A stretch of DNA of 64,000 bases from Corallococcus sp. EGB (GTDB lineage Bacteria; Myxococcota; Myxococcia; Myxococcales; Myxococcaceae): assembly GCF_019968905.1 (NCBI RefSeq), contig NZ_CP079946.1, positions 372,001-436,000 on the forward strand, read 5' to 3'. The stretch's first letter is position 1. Each line of letters begins with the position of its first letter. Shown piece by piece: positions 33,808-44,905 of this stretch. The translations under genes and the position numbers were made by a program. The notes under the pieces are model-generated. The model saw nothing but the letters and a program-made list of their open reading frames with translations, did no database searches and had not been told where the DNA came from.

Positions 33808-36402
33808 TCAGCCCTGCGCCGCTCCGGACGGTTTCTTCCACCTGGGCAGGCGCAGCACGAAGCGCGAGCCCGGCCCGTCCGGCGGTGCCTCTACGAACAG
33901 GTCGCCGCCGTGCGCGCGGGCGAGCTGCCGGGAGATGTAGAGGCCCAGGCCCAGGCTCGCGCGGGCGTGTGCTCCGGAGTTGCGGGTGAAGCGCTCGAAG
34001 ATGCGCTCGCGCGCGTCCTGGGGGATGCCGGGGCCCCAGTCGCGCACGGCGATGACGGCCGTGTCGCCTTCGCGCTCCACGTACAGCTCCACCGGCAGGC
34101 CCGGCGCGTACTTCATCGCGTTGGTGAGCAGGTTCATCAGGACCTGCTCCACGCGCGGCCGGTCCGCCAGCGCCACCACCGGGGCGTCCGCGTGCACCAC
34201 CGCCACGCAGCCCGCGGTGGCCAGCGCCTCCTCCATCCGCGCCACCAGCGCGTGCACCAGCGAGGACAGCTCCACCGCTTCCAGCTCCAGCGCCATCCGC
34301 CCCGTGCCCAGCCGCGCCACGTCGAACAGGTGCGACACCAGCCGCGTCAGCCGGTCCGCCTGACGCAGCGCCCCCTGCAGGCCCTGGCCCAGCCGCTCCG
34401 ACTCGTTCGACGGCAGCTTGTCCACCGTGCGCTGCAGTGACGACAGCTGCAGGTGCAGCGCGGACAGGGGCGTGCGCAGTTCGTGCGTCGCCACGGCCAC
34501 GAACTCGTCGCGCGCGGCCACGGCCTGCTCCGCCTGCCGGTACAGCCGCGCGTTGTCCACCGCCAGCGCCGCGCGCCACGCCAGGTCCTCCAGCTGCGAC
34601 AGGTCCCGAGGGCTGAAGCGCCGCGTGGGGGAGCACGTCGCCGCGCTCACGATGCCCAGCGTGCGCCCGCGCGCCATCAGCGGGACGACCATCACCGAGC
34701 GCGGGGCGAGCCCCTCCAGGACCTGCTGGTGCGCTTCGCTGACGGCGAAGGCGCGCATGGCGGCCTCGTCCACCTCGACCACCAGCTCCGGGCGCCCCGT
34801 CTCCAGCACCCGGCGCAGGAGCGTCTCGGCGCCGGGATGCGGCGCGTAGGGCATGGACTTCTCCAGCTGGGCCTGGAGCTGGTCGTCCCGGGCGCGGTGC
34901 TCCACGCGCTCCAGGTGCTCGCCGTCCTCGCCCAGCATGTCCACCAGGCAGTAGTCCGCCAGCTGCTCCACCACCAGCTCCGCCACGTTGCGCACGGTGG
35001 TGCGCCAGTCCAGGGACGTGGCCAGCCGCGTGGTCGCGTCCGTGAGGAAGCGCAGGTGCGTCTCCATGCGGCGCTGCTCGGTGATTTCGCGCACCACGCC
35101 GCCCACGCCCAACAGCTCCGTGCCGGAGCGCACCGGGAAGTACGTGGCCAGGAAGGTGCGCGGCTCCGGGCCCGCGACGTACTCCACCGGGTCGTCCACC
35201 ACGGCCACCTGGGACTCCAGCACGTGGCGCAGCAGGTCCTCGATGGGGCCGCCCGCGGGGCCCATCAGCTCGCGGGGCGTGAAGCCCAGGTGCTTCTCCA
35301 GGGGGATGCCGTTGTTCTCCGCGACGACCTTGTTGAGCCGCACGTAGCGCATGTGCGGATCCACGAAGCCCATGCCCACCGGGGACGCGGCGAAGAAGGC
35401 CTCCAGCATGGCCGCGGACGCGTCGCGCTCGCGCAGCGCCTCGCGGGCCTCGCGGTACAGCCGGGCGCTCTCCACCGCCAGGGCGGCGCGGCGCGCGAAC
35501 TCCGTGGCGTACCCCAGGTCGCGCTTCGTGTAGCGGCGCGCGGGCGACGCGGACACCAGGTTGATGATGCCGAAGCGGCGCCGCCCCACCGCCAGGGGCA
35601 GCAGCATGGACGAGCGCGGGGCCAGCGCCTCCAGCAGCCGGCGGTGCTCGGGCGAGCGGGACACCTGGTCCAGCCACTCCGGCGTGAGGTCGGAGATGAG
35701 CACGGGCTTGCCGCGCGAGAACACCCCGGCGAGCGGCGAGCCCGAGCCGGCCTCCGGTGGGAAGGACAGCGTCTGGTCGAGCAGCGCCTGGCGCCGCGGG
35801 TCCCTCGCGCTGAGCGCGAGCCGGTGCAGCTCGCCGTCCGGTCCCAGCACGTCCACCATGCAGTAGTCCGCCCACTCCAGCGTGGCCAGCCGCGCCACCG
35901 CCTTGAGCGTGGTCTCCCAGTCCAGGGACTCGGCGAGCAGCCGGCTCGCCTCGCTGACGAAGAACTCCGCGCGCTCGGTGGCCTTGCGCTCGGTGATGTC
36001 CACGTGGATGTTCACCGCGCCCACGAGCCGGCCGTCGGACGAGTACAGCGGCGCCGCGGAGTTGAGGATGGTGCGGCGCGCACCGTCCCTGCCGACGATG
36101 TCCACCTCCTCGTTGGAGATGGTCTGCCGGCTGCGCAGTGTGCGCGCCACGGCCCACTCCTCGCCGCGCAGGCGCTTGCCCGTGCCCGGCCAGTACGCCT
36201 CGAAGCTGTCGAAGTGCTCCAGGTGCATCCCCGCAAGCGCGGCCGGTCCCCACATCGCGCTGGCGGCGGCGTTGGCGGCGAGCAGCCGGCCCGCCGTGTC
36301 CACGATGACGACCCCCACGGGCAGGAGCTGCAGCACCGTGCGCAGCCACTCCTGCGGCACGGGGGTGGACTCCGCCAGAAAGGTGCCAGTCGGCTCGGAC
36401 AT
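33808..36402 (-). CDS. Sensor histidine kinase (PAS-GAF-PAS-GAF-HisKA-HATPase)
   Basis: 864 residues, with no membrane segment and no receiver. PAS 1 starts at VLQLLPVGVVIVDTAGRLL and ends DITERKA. GAF 1 spans about 150-310 (ADYCMVDVLGPDGELHRLALSA). PAS 2 begins MLEAFFAASPVGMGFVDPHMR. GAF 2 repeats the same pattern (ADYCLVDMLGEDGEHLERVEHRA), so the PAS-GAF unit has been duplicated internally. HisKA has THELRTPL with His640; the ATPase has NLLTNAMKY, DWGPGIP and SLGLGLYIS. It is an orphan kinase, cytoplasmic, with an unknown signal. Confidence 0.9.
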   Translation of the reverse strand: MSEPTGTFLAESTPVPQEWLRTVLQLLPVGVVIVDTAGRLLAANAAASAMWGPAALAGMHLEHFDSFEAYWPGTGKRLRGEEWAVARTLRSRQTISNEEVDIVGRDGARRTILNSAAPLYSSDGRLVGAVNIHVDITERKATERAEFFVSEASRLLAESLDWETTLKAVARLATLEWADYCMVDVLGPDGELHRLALSARDPRRQALLDQTLSFPPEAGSGSPLAGVFSRGKPVLISDLTPEWLDQVSRSPEHRRLLEALAPRSSMLLPLAVGRRRFGIINLVSASPARRYTKRDLGYATEFARRAALAVESARLYREAREALRERDASAAMLEAFFAASPVGMGFVDPHMRYVRLNKVVAENNGIPLEKHLGFTPRELMGPAGGPIEDLLRHVLESQVAVVDDPVEYVAGPEPRTFLATYFPVRSGTELLGVGGVVREITEQRRMETHLRFLTDATTRLATSLDWRTTVRNVAELVVEQLADYCLVDMLGEDGEHLERVEHRARDDQLQAQLEKSMPYAPHPGAETLLRRVLETGRPELVVEVDEAAMRAFAVSEAHQQVLEGLAPRSVMVVPLMARGRTLGIVSAATCSPTRRFSPRDLSQLEDLAWRAALAVDNARLYRQAEQAVAARDEFVAVATHELRTPLSALHLQLSSLQRTVDKLPSNESERLGQGLQGALRQADRLTRLVSHLFDVARLGTGRMALELEAVELSSLVHALVARMEEALATAGCVAVVHADAPVVALADRPRVEQVLMNLLTNAMKYAPGLPVELYVEREGDTAVIAVRDWGPGIPQDARERIFERFTRNSGAHARASLGLGLYISRQLARAHGGDLFVEAPPDGPGSRFVLRLPRWKKPSGAAQG

Positions 36403-36620
36403 GGGCGCGGAGCCCCCTTCCCCGCGGGAGGTTCTACGGTGGGGGTGGCGGGGGAATGGGACCACCCGACCCCGGTTGGATCCGGCTTTCCGGGAGTTGG
36501 CACCTGGATCCACCCGGCGGCAGGGCGGGGGGCTTGATTCGGAGCGGCCAACGGGGCGTCATTCGGGGCTTTCGTTCACGGCCGCGCTTCCAGCGGCCGG
36601 GCTGCCGCAAGGAAGGGTGG

Positions 36621-37620: not shown

Positions 37621-39168
<1,548 letters not shown>

Positions 39169-39400
39169 GGGGGTCTTGCGTCCTTGCGGAGGGGGCGGCC
39201 GAAGGAACGGGGTAGGCCGCCACGAAGCTTGATGTACCGGGTGGCCCCCTATCACGGCCACCGGGACTCTCGCAACGCACCACACGCCAGGGCCTTTCCC
39301 CACCCCGGCGCCCCTTTATCGCGCACGTAAGCCGGTGGCCCGGACGTGGGGGGCCATGCCCGCCCGCCGCCCCACGGAGCGCCCGGCCTCGAGCCCGGCT

Positions 39401-40885
39401 TCAGGCGCCGGACGCCGCGAGGCCGTCCTCGCGGGGCAGCCACACGATGAACCGGGTGCCGTCCACCGCCCCCGACTCCACGGAGACGCGCCCGCCGTGG
39501 GCCAGGGCGATCTGCCGGACGAGGAACAGCGACAGCCCCAGCCCGTCGTCCGCGGCGCACCCGGAGCGGTGCTTGAACGGCTCGAAGAGGGTGCCCTGGG
39601 ACTCCGGCGGCACCCGGCAATCCGGGTCGTGCACCTGCACCGTCACCCCGTCCCAGCGCCCCGTCAGTTGGAGCACCACGGAAGCGCCCTCCTTGCCGTG
39701 GTGCAGGGCATTGCCCACCAGCGAGTCCATCAGCTGGTGGAGCCGCTCCGCGTCCCAGCAGCCCTTCAGGTCCCCGCCCAGGACGAGCCGCAGGTCGCGG
39801 CCCGGGTGGGCGCGCTGCCGGTCCGCCACCACGCGCTCCGCCAGCGCCCCCAGGTGGACGGGGGCGGGGTGCACGGGCAGGCCGTTGGACAGCCGGGCGC
39901 GGGTGAAGTCCAGCAGCTGGCGGATCAGCCGCTCCACCCGGCGCACCCCCTGGCCCACCCGTCCGACCTGCTCCGTCAGGGCTTCCGGCATCGCCGGCGC
40001 GTGCTGGAGGGCGAGCACCTCATGGTGGAGCGCCTGGAGCGGGGCCTTGAAGCCGTCCCCCGCGGCGTCCAGGAACTGGTCGCGGAAGTGCTCCATCCGC
40101 GCCAGGCGCTCCTCGGCGGCCTTGCGGATGCTCACGTCCCACACCGCCCCCATGCGCACCGCGCGGCCCTGGTAGGTGGCCGGCCGGCCCATGACCTCCA
40201 CGGGGATGCGGCGGCCGTCGCGGTGGAGCACGGCCAGCTCATACGGGGCCTCCACGCCGCGCTCCATCACGTCCCGGGCGGGGGCGCGGAACTCCGGCGC
40301 CACGCACTCCAGGATGTTCCGGCCGATCAGCTCCGCCGTCTCGTAGAACCCCAACAGGCGCCCCAGGCCGGGGCTGATCTCCAGGAACTGCCCGCGGTCG
40401 TGGAAGAAGTACCCGTCGCAGGAGATCTCCACGATGGAGCGCATGTGCTCCTCGCTCGCGCGCAGGGCCGCCTCCTCGCGCAGGCGCGCGGAGGTGTCCC
40501 GCAGCAGCAGCAGCACGCCCACCCCGGGGCCCGCCGGCATGGCGCTCACGGTCAGGTGGCGCAGCGTGCCCACCTCGCCGAAGCGGCCCGACACCAGCTC
40601 CTCCGCCACGCGCTCCCCGGACTGCGCCCGCGCCAGCAGCGGCGACAGGGGCGGCGCCAGGCCCGGCCACGTCTCCGACAGGAAGCGCCCCACGCACAGC
40701 GCCGCCGGGCGGCCGCACAGCGCCGCCAGCAGGTCGTTCATCCAGACGAGGCGGGAGTCCCCATCCACCAGCGCCACCCCCCAACCCGGCGCGTTGAGCA
40801 ACGCGCCCAGGTAGGGCAGGGTCTCCTCGGGAACCCCCGGGGACGGAAGGGCTCCGGGAAGCCGTTGGAAGACAGGCTGCGGCAT
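39401..40885 (-). CDS. Degenerate sensor-kinase-like protein between atpH and atpA
   Basis: 494 residues from ATG 40885. Two PAS domains (GALLNAPGWGVALVDGDSR and MRSIVEISCDGYFFHDRGQ) precede a HisKA-like helix pair and an ATPase-like domain. The H-box SHELRTPL reads GDGFKAPL: the phospho-acceptor His is Asp277. The N-box Asn392 is kept, but the G1 box (DxGxG) is DPDC at 420-423, while G2 (DGLGLSLFLV) is intact. It therefore probably cannot autophosphorylate and may act as a signalling pseudokinase. It is on the same strand as atpH (148 bp upstream) and atpA (232 bp downstream). Confidence 0.8.
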   Translation of the reverse strand: MPQPVFQRLPGALPSPGVPEETLPYLGALLNAPGWGVALVDGDSRLVWMNDLLAALCGRPAALCVGRFLSETWPGLAPPLSPLLARAQSGERVAEELVSGRFGEVGTLRHLTVSAMPAGPGVGVLLLLRDTSARLREEAALRASEEHMRSIVEISCDGYFFHDRGQFLEISPGLGRLLGFYETAELIGRNILECVAPEFRAPARDVMERGVEAPYELAVLHRDGRRIPVEVMGRPATYQGRAVRMGAVWDVSIRKAAEERLARMEHFRDQFLDAAGDGFKAPLQALHHEVLALQHAPAMPEALTEQVGRVGQGVRRVERLIRQLLDFTRARLSNGLPVHPAPVHLGALAERVVADRQRAHPGRDLRLVLGGDLKGCWDAERLHQLMDSLVGNALHHGKEGASVVLQLTGRWDGVTVQVHDPDCRVPPESQGTLFEPFKHRSGCAADDGLGLSLFLVRQIALAHGGRVSVESGAVDGTRFIVWLPREDGLAASGA

Positions 40886-41033
40886 GGGCGGGTCGTCTCG
40901 GAAAACGCGGGCTTGTCCGCGTTGACCAGAAGTATACCCATTCCCGGAGCCAGCGGGAAATACAGGTTTGGCTAGGACTGCGGGGCAACCCGGACAACCC
41001 GGCACGTTGGTCGTACCGGGAGCGGGGGAGGGG

Positions 41034-41576
41034 CTACTTCAGCTCGCGGCGCATCTGCTCCAGCTGGGTGCGCAGGGTGCCGTCGTAGAGGGTGCCCCCG
41101 ACCTGGGCGGCCACGCCGCCGAGCAGGGAGGGGTCCACGCGGGTCTCCAGCACGACGTTGCGCTGGGTGAGCTGCTGGAGCGACTGCTGCAGCTGGCTGA
41201 CGGCGTCCTGCGTGAGCGGCACGGCGCTGGTGACCTGGCCGCGGACGCGGCCCGCGCGGGCATCCGCCATGTCGCGGTAGAGCCGGGCGATGTCCGGCAG
41301 GTAGCCCAGGCGGTTGCGGTCCACCAGCAGGCGCAGCGCGTTGGCCAGCGCGGGCTCCGCCGGGGACGGCAGGGCCTTCAGCAGTGCCTCCACCACGTTG
41401 CTGCGCTGGGCGCGGCTGTAGGCGGGGTTGAGCAGCACGTCCGACAGCTCGGGGCTCTGGCCCACGACGGCGGCGAAGGCGTTGAGCTGCTCGGCGACGG
41501 CGTCGGTGCGGTTGCCTTCCGCTGCGACGTCGAGGATGGCGCGGGCGTAGCGGCGGGAGATGGAGACGTTCACCAT
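41034..41576 (-). CDS. atpH: F1 ATP synthase subunit delta
   Basis: 180 residues, the usual length. ISRRYARAILDVAAE at the start and the C-terminal VLETRVDPSLLGGVAAQVGGTLYDGTLRTQLEQM are the hallmark delta/OSCP segments. It links the F1 head to the peripheral stalk. The ATG at 41576 has AAGGGCG about 8 bases upstream. It lacks the usual atpF neighbour upstream; instead a divergent Hsp70 gene is there, and the kinase-like gene separates it from atpA. Confidence 0.95.
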   Translation of the reverse strand: MVNVSISRRYARAILDVAAEGNRTDAVAEQLNAFAAVVGQSPELSDVLLNPAYSRAQRSNVVEALLKALPSPAEPALANALRLLVDRNRLGYLPDIARLYRDMADARAGRVRGQVTSAVPLTQDAVSQLQQSLQQLTQRNVVLETRVDPSLLGGVAAQVGGTLYDGTLRTQLEQMRRELK

Positions 41577-43639: not shown

Positions 43640-43732
43640 CGTCCCGCGGCACACGGAAGAGGCGTCCACCAGCGCACGTTGTATCGCCACGTCCGTGGTG
43701 CCTTTCGTGGAGTCCGCGTATCTCCGGAAGTC

Positions 43733-44905
43733 ATGATGACCCCCGGCTTTTCTCCTCGCCCGAGAGATCTGGTCTTCGTGGTGGACGACTCGCGGACGGC
43801 GCGGGACGTGATGCGGCTGCACCTGTCGCGCATGGGCTGCGACGCGGTGGGGCTGGAGGGGGCGGATGCGTGCCTGGCGGAGCTGGCGCAGCGGACGCCG
43901 GCGCTCATCCTGATGGACCTGCACCTGGAGAAGCTCCAGGGGGACGAGGCGTGCCGCCTGGTCAAGGCGCACCCGGCGGGCCGCAACGTGCCGGTGGTGA
44001 TGTTCACCGCCGCGGACGAGCCGCACGAGGTGATGCACTGCGGGCGCGCGGGCGCGGACGACTTCCTGCCCAAGCCGGTGAGCCAGGAGGCGCTGGAGGC
44101 GAAGGTGGCCGCGGTGCGCCTGTCGCGCGAGCGCGCCTGGACGGGCCCGCCGCGCGGCAAGGGCGTGCTGCTGGTGGAGGGCGGCCGCTTCCTGCACACC
44201 TTCCTGGGCGGCGCGCTGGAGCACGAGGGGCTGCACGTGCTCTACGCCAAGGACCTGGACGACGCGGCGGCGCAGGCCGTGGCCCAGGGCGAGCGGCTGG
44301 ACGGCTTCGTGGTGGACGTGTCCCGGCTGCCGCGCGAGGCCCTGGCGCTGGCCACGCGCCTGCGCGAGCAGTTCCCGCGCAAGCCGCTGGTGCTGATGTC
44401 GCGGGTGGAGGAGGCGCCGGACGTGCTGGCGCGCGCGCAGGAGCTGTGCGGCGCGCCGCTTCTGCTCAAGCGGCAGCTGGGCGCGGACGAGCTGTTGGCG
44501 AAGGTGCTCGCGCGCCTGGCGCCGGGCACGGCTCCCCTGCGGGCCGCGGAGCGGGTGCCCTTCTTCACCGTGGTGGAGTTCAGCACCCAGGGCGGCCCCA
44601 CGCTCAGCGGCTTCAGCCATGACGCCAGCCCCCAGGGGCTCTTCGTGCGCACGCTCACGCCCGCGCGCGAGGGCTCGCGGCTGTCGCTGCGCCTGGTGAT
44701 GGCCGGCCAGCGCACGCCCTGCGAGGCGCAGGCGGTGGTGGCGTGGTGCAACCCCCCCGGGATGGGCAGCGCGTTCCGCTCGCAGACGGGCATGGGGTTG
44801 CGGCTGGAGGGCATGGACGCGCAGCTGCAGCAGCGCTTCATGCGCTTCGTGCCCCAGAGCCTCGGTTTTCCCCCCGCCGGGTCCGTGCGCGCCTCAGGTT
44901 TCTGA
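43733..44905 (+). CDS. Receiver - degenerate receiver - PilZ protein
   Basis: 390 residues; ATG 43733 (ATG 43736 is the next codon) follows GGAAG. Receiver 1 is complete: VVDDSRTARDV, LILMDLHLEK with the phospho-Asp, VVMFTAAD and LPKPVSQEA. The second, about 143-260, has the fold pattern (GVLLVEGGRFLHTFL, FVVDVSRLPRE, LVLMSRVEE, LLLKRQLG) but a changed acidic pocket. The C-terminal 120 residues (FSTQGGPTLSGFSHDASPQGLFVRT) are a PilZ-like domain of the Myxococcus-specific type. It could couple phosphorylation to c-di-GMP or motility output, but the usual RxxxR of PilZ is not evident. Confidence 0.8.
   Translation: MMTPGFSPRPRDLVFVVDDSRTARDVMRLHLSRMGCDAVGLEGADACLAELAQRTPALILMDLHLEKLQGDEACRLVKAHPAGRNVPVVMFTAADEPHEVMHCGRAGADDFLPKPVSQEALEAKVAAVRLSRERAWTGPPRGKGVLLVEGGRFLHTFLGGALEHEGLHVLYAKDLDDAAAQAVAQGERLDGFVVDVSRLPREALALATRLREQFPRKPLVLMSRVEEAPDVLARAQELCGAPLLLKRQLGADELLAKVLARLAPGTAPLRAAERVPFFTVVEFSTQGGPTLSGFSHDASPQGLFVRTLTPAREGSRLSLRLVMAGQRTPCEAQAVVAWCNPPGMGSAFRSQTGMGLRLEGMDAQLQQRFMRFVPQSLGFPPAGSVRASGF

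Follow-up and report, generated by a model that had tools for sequence, protein, structure and literature searches.

A histidine kinase-like gene between atpH and atpA of Myxococcaceae with a repeatedly replaced phospho-acceptor site

In the accessible text of the respective papers, the pseudo-histidine kinase DivL is described as lacking kinase as well as phosphatase activity and as binding ATP weakly (PMC4211667), and NifL, which has a conserved His and responds to the FAD redox state and ADP, as acting through protein binding (PMC9866876). The chloroplast sensor kinase CSK is reported there to have lost the His in green algae and land plants while the protein was kept and ATP is bound; its acceptor site is occupied by Tyr or Gln in green algae and by Glu in higher plants (PMC5054060). 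HisKA domains without acceptor His are given as 722 of 76,471, about 0.9% of the sample (PMC12632262), and a further paper, as far as its accessible text goes, concerns Ser/Thr pseudokinases (PMC6791715). In this study, we closely examined a histidine kinase-like gene of Corallococcus sp. EGB in a window of 64,000 nucleotides (the whole stretch of DNA analyzed; contig NZ_CP079946.1, positions 372,001 to 436,000). No description of the locus was found in titles and abstract openings, with subscription papers mostly outside reach and no Myxococcus xanthus locus tag.

The gene lies between atpH and atpA, as the original prediction had placed it, and all three are encoded on the minus strand (Table 1). 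Its reading frame is intact from an ATG at 40885 to a stop codon at 39403-39401. The two PAS domains and the ATPase fold that had been read from the sequence were recovered by Pfam above cut-off (PAS_4, PAS_9, and HATPase_c). The HisKA profile reached 14.1 bits, under the Pfam gathering score of 26.9, and 52.6 bits on the H-bearing L059, the only orthologue scored. Alignment of the orthologues places GDGFKAPL of the window protein opposite GHDLRTPL, which confirms Asp277 (codon GAC) at the phospho-acceptor site, and likewise the predicted G1 box DPDC (context HDPDCRVP, D420-V425); the N, F, and G2 motifs of the CA domain are present, and G1 is altered. An AlphaFold2 model from eight window or named-locus sequences showed two PAS folds, a helical hairpin (252-294/301-332), and a CA fold at moderate confidence (mean pLDDT 74.9, pTM 0.39), with a pLDDT below 50 in the lid region 438-448. 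Judged from sequence and model, the protein appears to be a pseudo-histidine kinase, with the kinase fold retained and residues needed for a catalytic function gone. In the second PAS domain, D157, G158, H162, Y215, and W249 and the adjoining C156 are invariant in 64 of 64 orthologues, and C156, H162, and W249 could be ligand contacts.

Table 1. Features of the atpH-atpA region and of two distant ATP synthase genes (window positions unless a contig is named)
Feature	Position	Strand	Basis
Putative pseudo-histidine kinase gene, PAS-PAS-DHp-CA, 494 aa	39401..40885	-	ORF + Pfam + model
PAS domain 1, residues 34-134	40484..40786	-	Pfam PAS_4, E 3.5e-13
PAS domain 2, residues 157-250	40136..40417	-	Pfam PAS_9, above cut-off
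DHp helical hairpin, residues 256-331	39893..40120	-	modelled helices; sub-threshold HisKA
CA (HATPase_c) domain, residues 378-486	39428..39754	-	Pfam, E 2.9e-18
Codon 277 GAC (Asp), phospho-acceptor His replaced	40055..40057	-	orthologue alignment
N-box Asn392, retained in window protein	39710..39712	-	orthologue alignment
G1 box DPDCRV, residues 420-425	39611..39628	-	orthologue alignment
Conserved promoter-like element GTATTTCC-N19-TATACT, ending ~45 bp before ATG	40931..40963	-	fitted pattern
Conserved promoter-like element upstream of atpA	39247..39275	-	fitted pattern
atpH (OSCP/delta), upstream of kinase-like gene	41034..41576	-	Pfam PF00213
atpA, downstream of kinase-like gene	37621..39168	-	Pfam PF00006
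atpG and atpB	G000:C1 8831394-8832275 and 8928159-8928791		

Orthologues were collected through AtpH, which was searched in 96 Myxococcaceae genomes and matched in 93; the surroundings of atpH were taken from 92 genomes besides that of the window, giving 93 loci (one genome with two). At atpH, the closest named relatives of the window's genome are Corallococcus. The window and 63 of the 93 loci have an orthologue directly after atpH, with no gene intervening, and these comprise all genomes (64 of 64) from eight genera (g1, g3, g5, g6, g7, g8, g19, and g20). Past the orthologue comes atpA, in the window as well as in 57 loci, one of which shows it partly and 56 from the first residue; the contig ends earlier in the remaining six. 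The 64 orthologues contain no internal stop; 60 are whole, and contig ends truncate the other four (L117, L119, L123, and L126). Absence of the gene from the atp locus of close relatives, which would have spoken against the original prediction, was thus not observed. The family scan found no orthologue in the remaining genera (30 loci from 29 genomes, several of them short stretches ended by the contig). A search with L059 in 145 genomes of the order gave matches at E ≤1e-70 in 61 genomes; the best match in each is the atp locus, without internal stop, and five genomes hold a second, weaker match away from it. Three genomes of the Corallococcus group (G017, G019, and G023) were missed by this search, their contigs stopping within the gene. 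As read from distribution and trees, the gene has stood beside atpH since the ancestor of the eight genera.

As a side observation, contigs break inside the gene (L117, L119, L123, and L126) or about 100 bp past it (L120 and L121) in six of 15 other Corallococcus-group genomes, perhaps because the stretch is hard to sequence.

Residue 277 varies widely among the orthologues. It is His in 21 of 64 rows, Asn in 13, Asp and Thr in nine each, Ala in four, Val, Gln, and Ser in two each, and Gly and Pro in one each, with Tyr in none of the 64; in the 60 whole rows, entropy ranks it 29th in variability among 494 positions. Conservation of Asp277 among orthologues, which the original prediction had proposed to check, was not found, Asp being limited to the subclade of the window (9/9 sequences). 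A normal His box in orthologues had been named as an argument against a pseudokinase, and it applies in part: 21 of the 64 orthologues carry the His, 17 of them together with N-box Asn392. In two controls the acceptor was constant, with His in 30 of 30 fetched orthologues of a nearby kinase at 33808-36513 (31 of 96 genomes matched at E ≤1e-120, and 30 became loci) and in 27 of 27 related kinases (the best 22 of 122 non-self matches in the same genome plus five from other genomes). Since Asp occurs in all nine genomes of the nearest subclade and His in every related kinase, Asp277 is attributable neither to chance nor to a sequencing error.

The related kinases have a G1 box of the form NxGx(P/A/V)I in 18 of 27 cases, mostly NxGxPI, and DxGxG in nine. 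DxGxG was therefore rejected as a yardstick in favor of NEGPPVP of the H-bearing orthologues, as most of the closest relatives lack DxGxG and the N-type G1 in 18 of them makes NEGPPVP, seen in many H-bearing orthologues, an ordinary form within this class. Of the 62 rows with a letter at N-box position 392, 24 have Ser instead of Asn, mostly Myxococcus-type ones. Three orthologues (L065, L070, and L073) keep His277 with Ser already at the N-box, so that the acceptor is not necessarily the first site lost. At codon level, His is CAT in 18 of 21 cases and Asn is AAT in nine of 13, one base apart. In the nine D-bearing rows, Gly follows the acceptor, where the remaining 55 of 64 rows have D or E. 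An acidic residue at this place is linked to phosphatase activity, and because Gly replaces it, phosphatase function is unlikely in the window's clade under this motif rule. Position H+4 is Ala (eight) or Gly (one) in the D-bearing rows, and Ala also in 19 of the 55 others. Column 277 behaves as unconstrained over much of the family, and Asp277 should not be read as a special residue.

A tree built without the catalytic columns required at least 16 changes at position 277, at least five of them between His and non-His. In a second tree, rooted on nine related kinases (six from the same genome and three from other genomes) with three truncated rows omitted and the catalytic columns included, the two earliest-branching groups carry His, one Asn pair excepted, and His was lost 10 times if it was never regained. 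As reconstructed from these sequences, His is ancestral at 277 and was then lost repeatedly.

We compared how often single sites changed on the two sides of the first tree, which midpoint rooting divides into 19 and 45 rows with total branch lengths of 4.03 and 4.33; under the outgroup root, the 19-row side forms two successive groups and no single clade. Parsimony changes (19-row/45-row side) numbered 1/14 at H277, 0/5 at N392, 2/7 at N/D420, 0/6 at G422, 2/5 at P/G424, and 0/3 at T477, against a mean of 2.0/3.3 at other DHp/CA sites. F434, P436, F437, and G450 showed 0/0 and G448 showed 1/0; 30 DHp/CA sites did not change at all, and of 185 sites, only residue 285 (15 changes) exceeded 277 on the 45-row side. 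The contrast for five catalytic sites (277, 392, 420, 422, and 424) was reached by 37 of 50,000 random sets of DHp/CA sites, and that for the four sites without 424 by 23 and 30 of 50,000 in two runs. It was weaker without 277 (392, 420, 422, and 424; 1,058 of 50,000) and weak over all 15 motif positions (3,849 of 50,000). At 277 the contrast is partly circular, as the tree sides were compared once the location of His had been seen. The site contrasts indicate a strong release signal at the acceptor and a modest one at the N-box and G1; the F-box and G2 show none.

On sequence and by analogy, an orthodox kinase became a maintained pseudo-histidine kinase that probably works without phosphotransfer, like DivL or NifL. 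Distribution and trees show a soluble PAS-PAS-DHp-CA sensor whose ancestor was an orthodox histidine kinase, one of the GHDLR(N/T)PL / NxGxP(I/V)P class, and autokinase and phosphotransfer activities would have been given up in the window's lineage and, independently, in several others. At the sequence level, the acceptor His and, variably, the N-box Asn or the G1 Gly were freed from selection, whereas constraint persisted on both PAS domains, the DHp hairpin core, and the F-box. The PAS domains would serve as input; a signal sensed there would travel along the coiled coil and reshape the DHp/CA module, which would then bind a partner, either a receiver protein or another kinase. Since the acceptor is lost yet the gene is intact and conserved, signaling probably proceeds by partner binding and not by phosphate transfer. 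This role would not be family-wide, because 17 of 64 orthologues still resemble competent kinases. The proposal as a whole, from ancestral kinase through repeated loss of autokinase and phosphotransfer to noncatalytic signaling through binding, we consider reasonably likely. By neighborhood, a REC-PilZ protein is a possible receiver partner, and no nifA-type activator was recognized among the flanking genes scanned (atpH, atpA, Hsp70, HAD-like, PAS/GAF kinase, and REC-PilZ).

The REC-PilZ gene lies past the Hsp70 gene (window 43679-44905, plus strand). Of 15 upstream stretches of about 5.6 kb that were sampled, 10 contain it; it was not found in the g2, g3, g6, g20, and g21 samples.

The window protein may still bind ATP, since N392 and D420 are retained. 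Together with the F-box and G2 present in the window's clade, this would suit half of a split kinase: with ATP bound, its CA domain would phosphorylate the His of a different kinase within a heterodimer, and only self-phosphorylation would be lost. Heterodimers of native kinases are described for ChrS and HrrS, where catalytically dead ChrS raises HrrS-borne output, but in the accessible account the dead partner was not the phosphate supplier (PMC9491836). The window's clade, moreover, has Asp in place of the first G1 glycine, followed by C-R, and the explanation fails for the 24 rows with Ser at the N-box. We therefore think a split kinase unlikely.

Outside the eight genera, the space between atpH and atpA is filled differently. 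In L092 and L095 it measures about 0.1 kb; in L093, L094, and L101 it is occupied by a Ser/Thr protein kinase (Pkinase, 2.6e-51); and in L088 (genome G001, genus g2) it contains an opposite-strand ORF of 232 codons, whose translation resembles, by eye, an outer membrane beta-barrel. The Ser/Thr kinase (genera g11 and g21) has a TonB_C-like end and lies at 1655-3700 in L093, 874-2907 in L094, 1694-3667 in L101, and 1695-2165 (cut) in L102. Genome G045 has two atpH copies with a Ser/Thr kinase after each, and in L113 (g4) a different Ser/Thr kinase-like ORF follows atpH, with atpA outside the stretch.

Alignment of both intergenic gaps (atpH to gene, 105-168 bp in 63 loci; gene to atpA, 123-365 bp in 56 loci) revealed conserved elements, after which an operon with ATP synthase was dropped as the default reading. 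Most rows share a block CAAACCNGTATTTCC...GGTATACT, its second half about 50 bp 5' of the ATG. Fitted patterns match 64 of 64 gaps before the kinase-like gene and 57 of 57 before atpA, with shuffled-gap matches of 0 and 0.001-0.002, respectively; being a looser form derived from the same gaps, they describe these gaps and are no independent test, and an initial, stricter regular expression matched 51 of 64 and 4 of 57. A narrower form of the gene's upstream element has a single exact match in the genome. A similar block was seen by eye before atpA in G001, which has no kinase-like gene, and a scan of the region with the sigma-70 consensus gave no match. We infer from these elements that the kinase-like gene is probably transcribed from its own promoter; it and atpA would have separate promoters, and read-through could still occur.

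Between the conserved halves of the element at 40931-40963, the window carries an imperfect inverted repeat (TTTCCCG...CGGGAAT), a possible operator.

These data bear on whether the protein is a regulator of ATP synthase that, on sensing an energy or redox signal, alters the expression of atpA and atpH or the activity of the enzyme. Its fixed place beside atpH in 64 of 64 genomes, a layout like that of NifL, and the presence of a Ser/Thr kinase at this place in three genomes from two further genera would fit such a regulator. Its own promoter-like element and that of atpA argue against it, as do the near-empty slot or opposite-strand ORF in other genera. Synteny alone says little here, as other neighbors are conserved too: 63 of 63 loci that have the orthologue, and 17 of 30 that lack it, contain an Hsp70 gene divergent from atpH, and an HAD-like gene past atpA is present in 51 of the 63. 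The ATP synthase genes are, in addition, scattered, with atpG and atpB at 8.83 and 8.93 Mb of the 9.43-Mb single-contig genome, far from atpH and atpA. The link to ATP synthase suggested by the original prediction, which derives from gene position and nothing else, is not supported, and we regard such a regulator as quite improbable. We give similarly little credence to a more specific version, in which one sensor at the atpH-atpA junction of core myxobacteria was converted several times in parallel from a kinase to a noncatalytic protein because its output was already a NifL-like binding that reads the redox or adenylate state and tunes atpH/atpA. If true, the living orthologues would form, at this one locus, a natural series of intermediates leading from kinases that work to pseudokinases.

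Selection was assessed by omega (Nei-Gojobori), in which non-independent pairs are summed and dS is underestimated through codon bias. The kinase-like gene gave 0.32 in CorA, 0.34 in CorB, and 0.19, 0.27, 0.37, 0.35, and 0.44 in five other groups, and single-domain values stayed below 0.6 in every group (maximum, 0.59). The control kinase gave 0.41 in CorA, 0.45 in CorB, and 0.51 in the Pyxidicoccus group (0.37 for the kinase-like gene), so that whole-gene omega lies under that of the control in three of three compared groups, whose row sets are near but not identical; for comparison, atpH gave 0.28-0.45 and atpA 0.16-0.30. Counting against the proposed reading, DHp and CA gave 0.31 and 0.35 in CorB versus tighter values of 0.10 and 0.22 in the control kinase. 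Repeated loss of catalytic residues and an acceptor column that drifts over ten residues might also be expected of a dying gene, whose kinase function became superfluous and whose remainder will decay. The absence of internal stops, the omega of every domain in every group, the 30 unchanging DHp/CA sites, and the conserved upstream element make this very improbable, and they agree with the original prediction that the open frame encodes a maintained protein. That the protein remains a kinase that uses a different acceptor, either Asp277 or a second His, is hardly credible: Asp277 is fixed across the nine sequences of the window's clade, but in other rows column 277 has N, T, A, V, or P, no other DHp His is among the nearly invariant positions, and Asp is not known as a DHp acceptor.

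A pseudo-histidine kinase that probably signals by binding is the reading we retain for the window's lineage. DivL, the best-studied acceptor-less case, is a single substitution. In the present case, related species carry one syntenic gene in states that range from working-looking through half-degraded to acceptor-less, and the order and extent of losses in histidine kinases become directly testable with natural orthologues.

Among known systems, the family profile compared with solved chains best matched the bacteriophytochromes 9rcc and 9eut (E 1.9e-42 over DHp and CA). Their transmitter (9eut from Pseudomonas aeruginosa) resembles the window protein in DHp and CA and has the H-box GHDLRNPLQ, but it carries the His and a different sensor part. 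In a Foldseek search with the model, the NifL-NifA complex (PDB 9qq6) ranked second, at a whole-chain TM of 0.26 that reflects a likeness of layout. The PAS-PAS-H-GHKL layout of Azotobacter NifL appears, from Pfam and model, to be that of the window protein as well; NifL differs in its conserved His and its response to FAD and ADP, whereas no nifA-type gene was recognized among the scanned flanking genes of the window protein, and the superposition is poor. CSK shares with the window family the loss of the His and the retention of the protein, but is a plastid protein of plants and algae, with fewer described substitutions and, in the accessible account, measured ATP binding. DivL of Caulobacter (PDB 4q20; Foldseek rank 48, TMt 0.76; profile E 6.4e-27) has, like the window protein, PAS, DHp, and CA folds and a replaced acceptor His. 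It has Tyr at the acceptor site and DivK as partner, whereas the window family carries ten different residues at this site and still His in 21 of 64 members.
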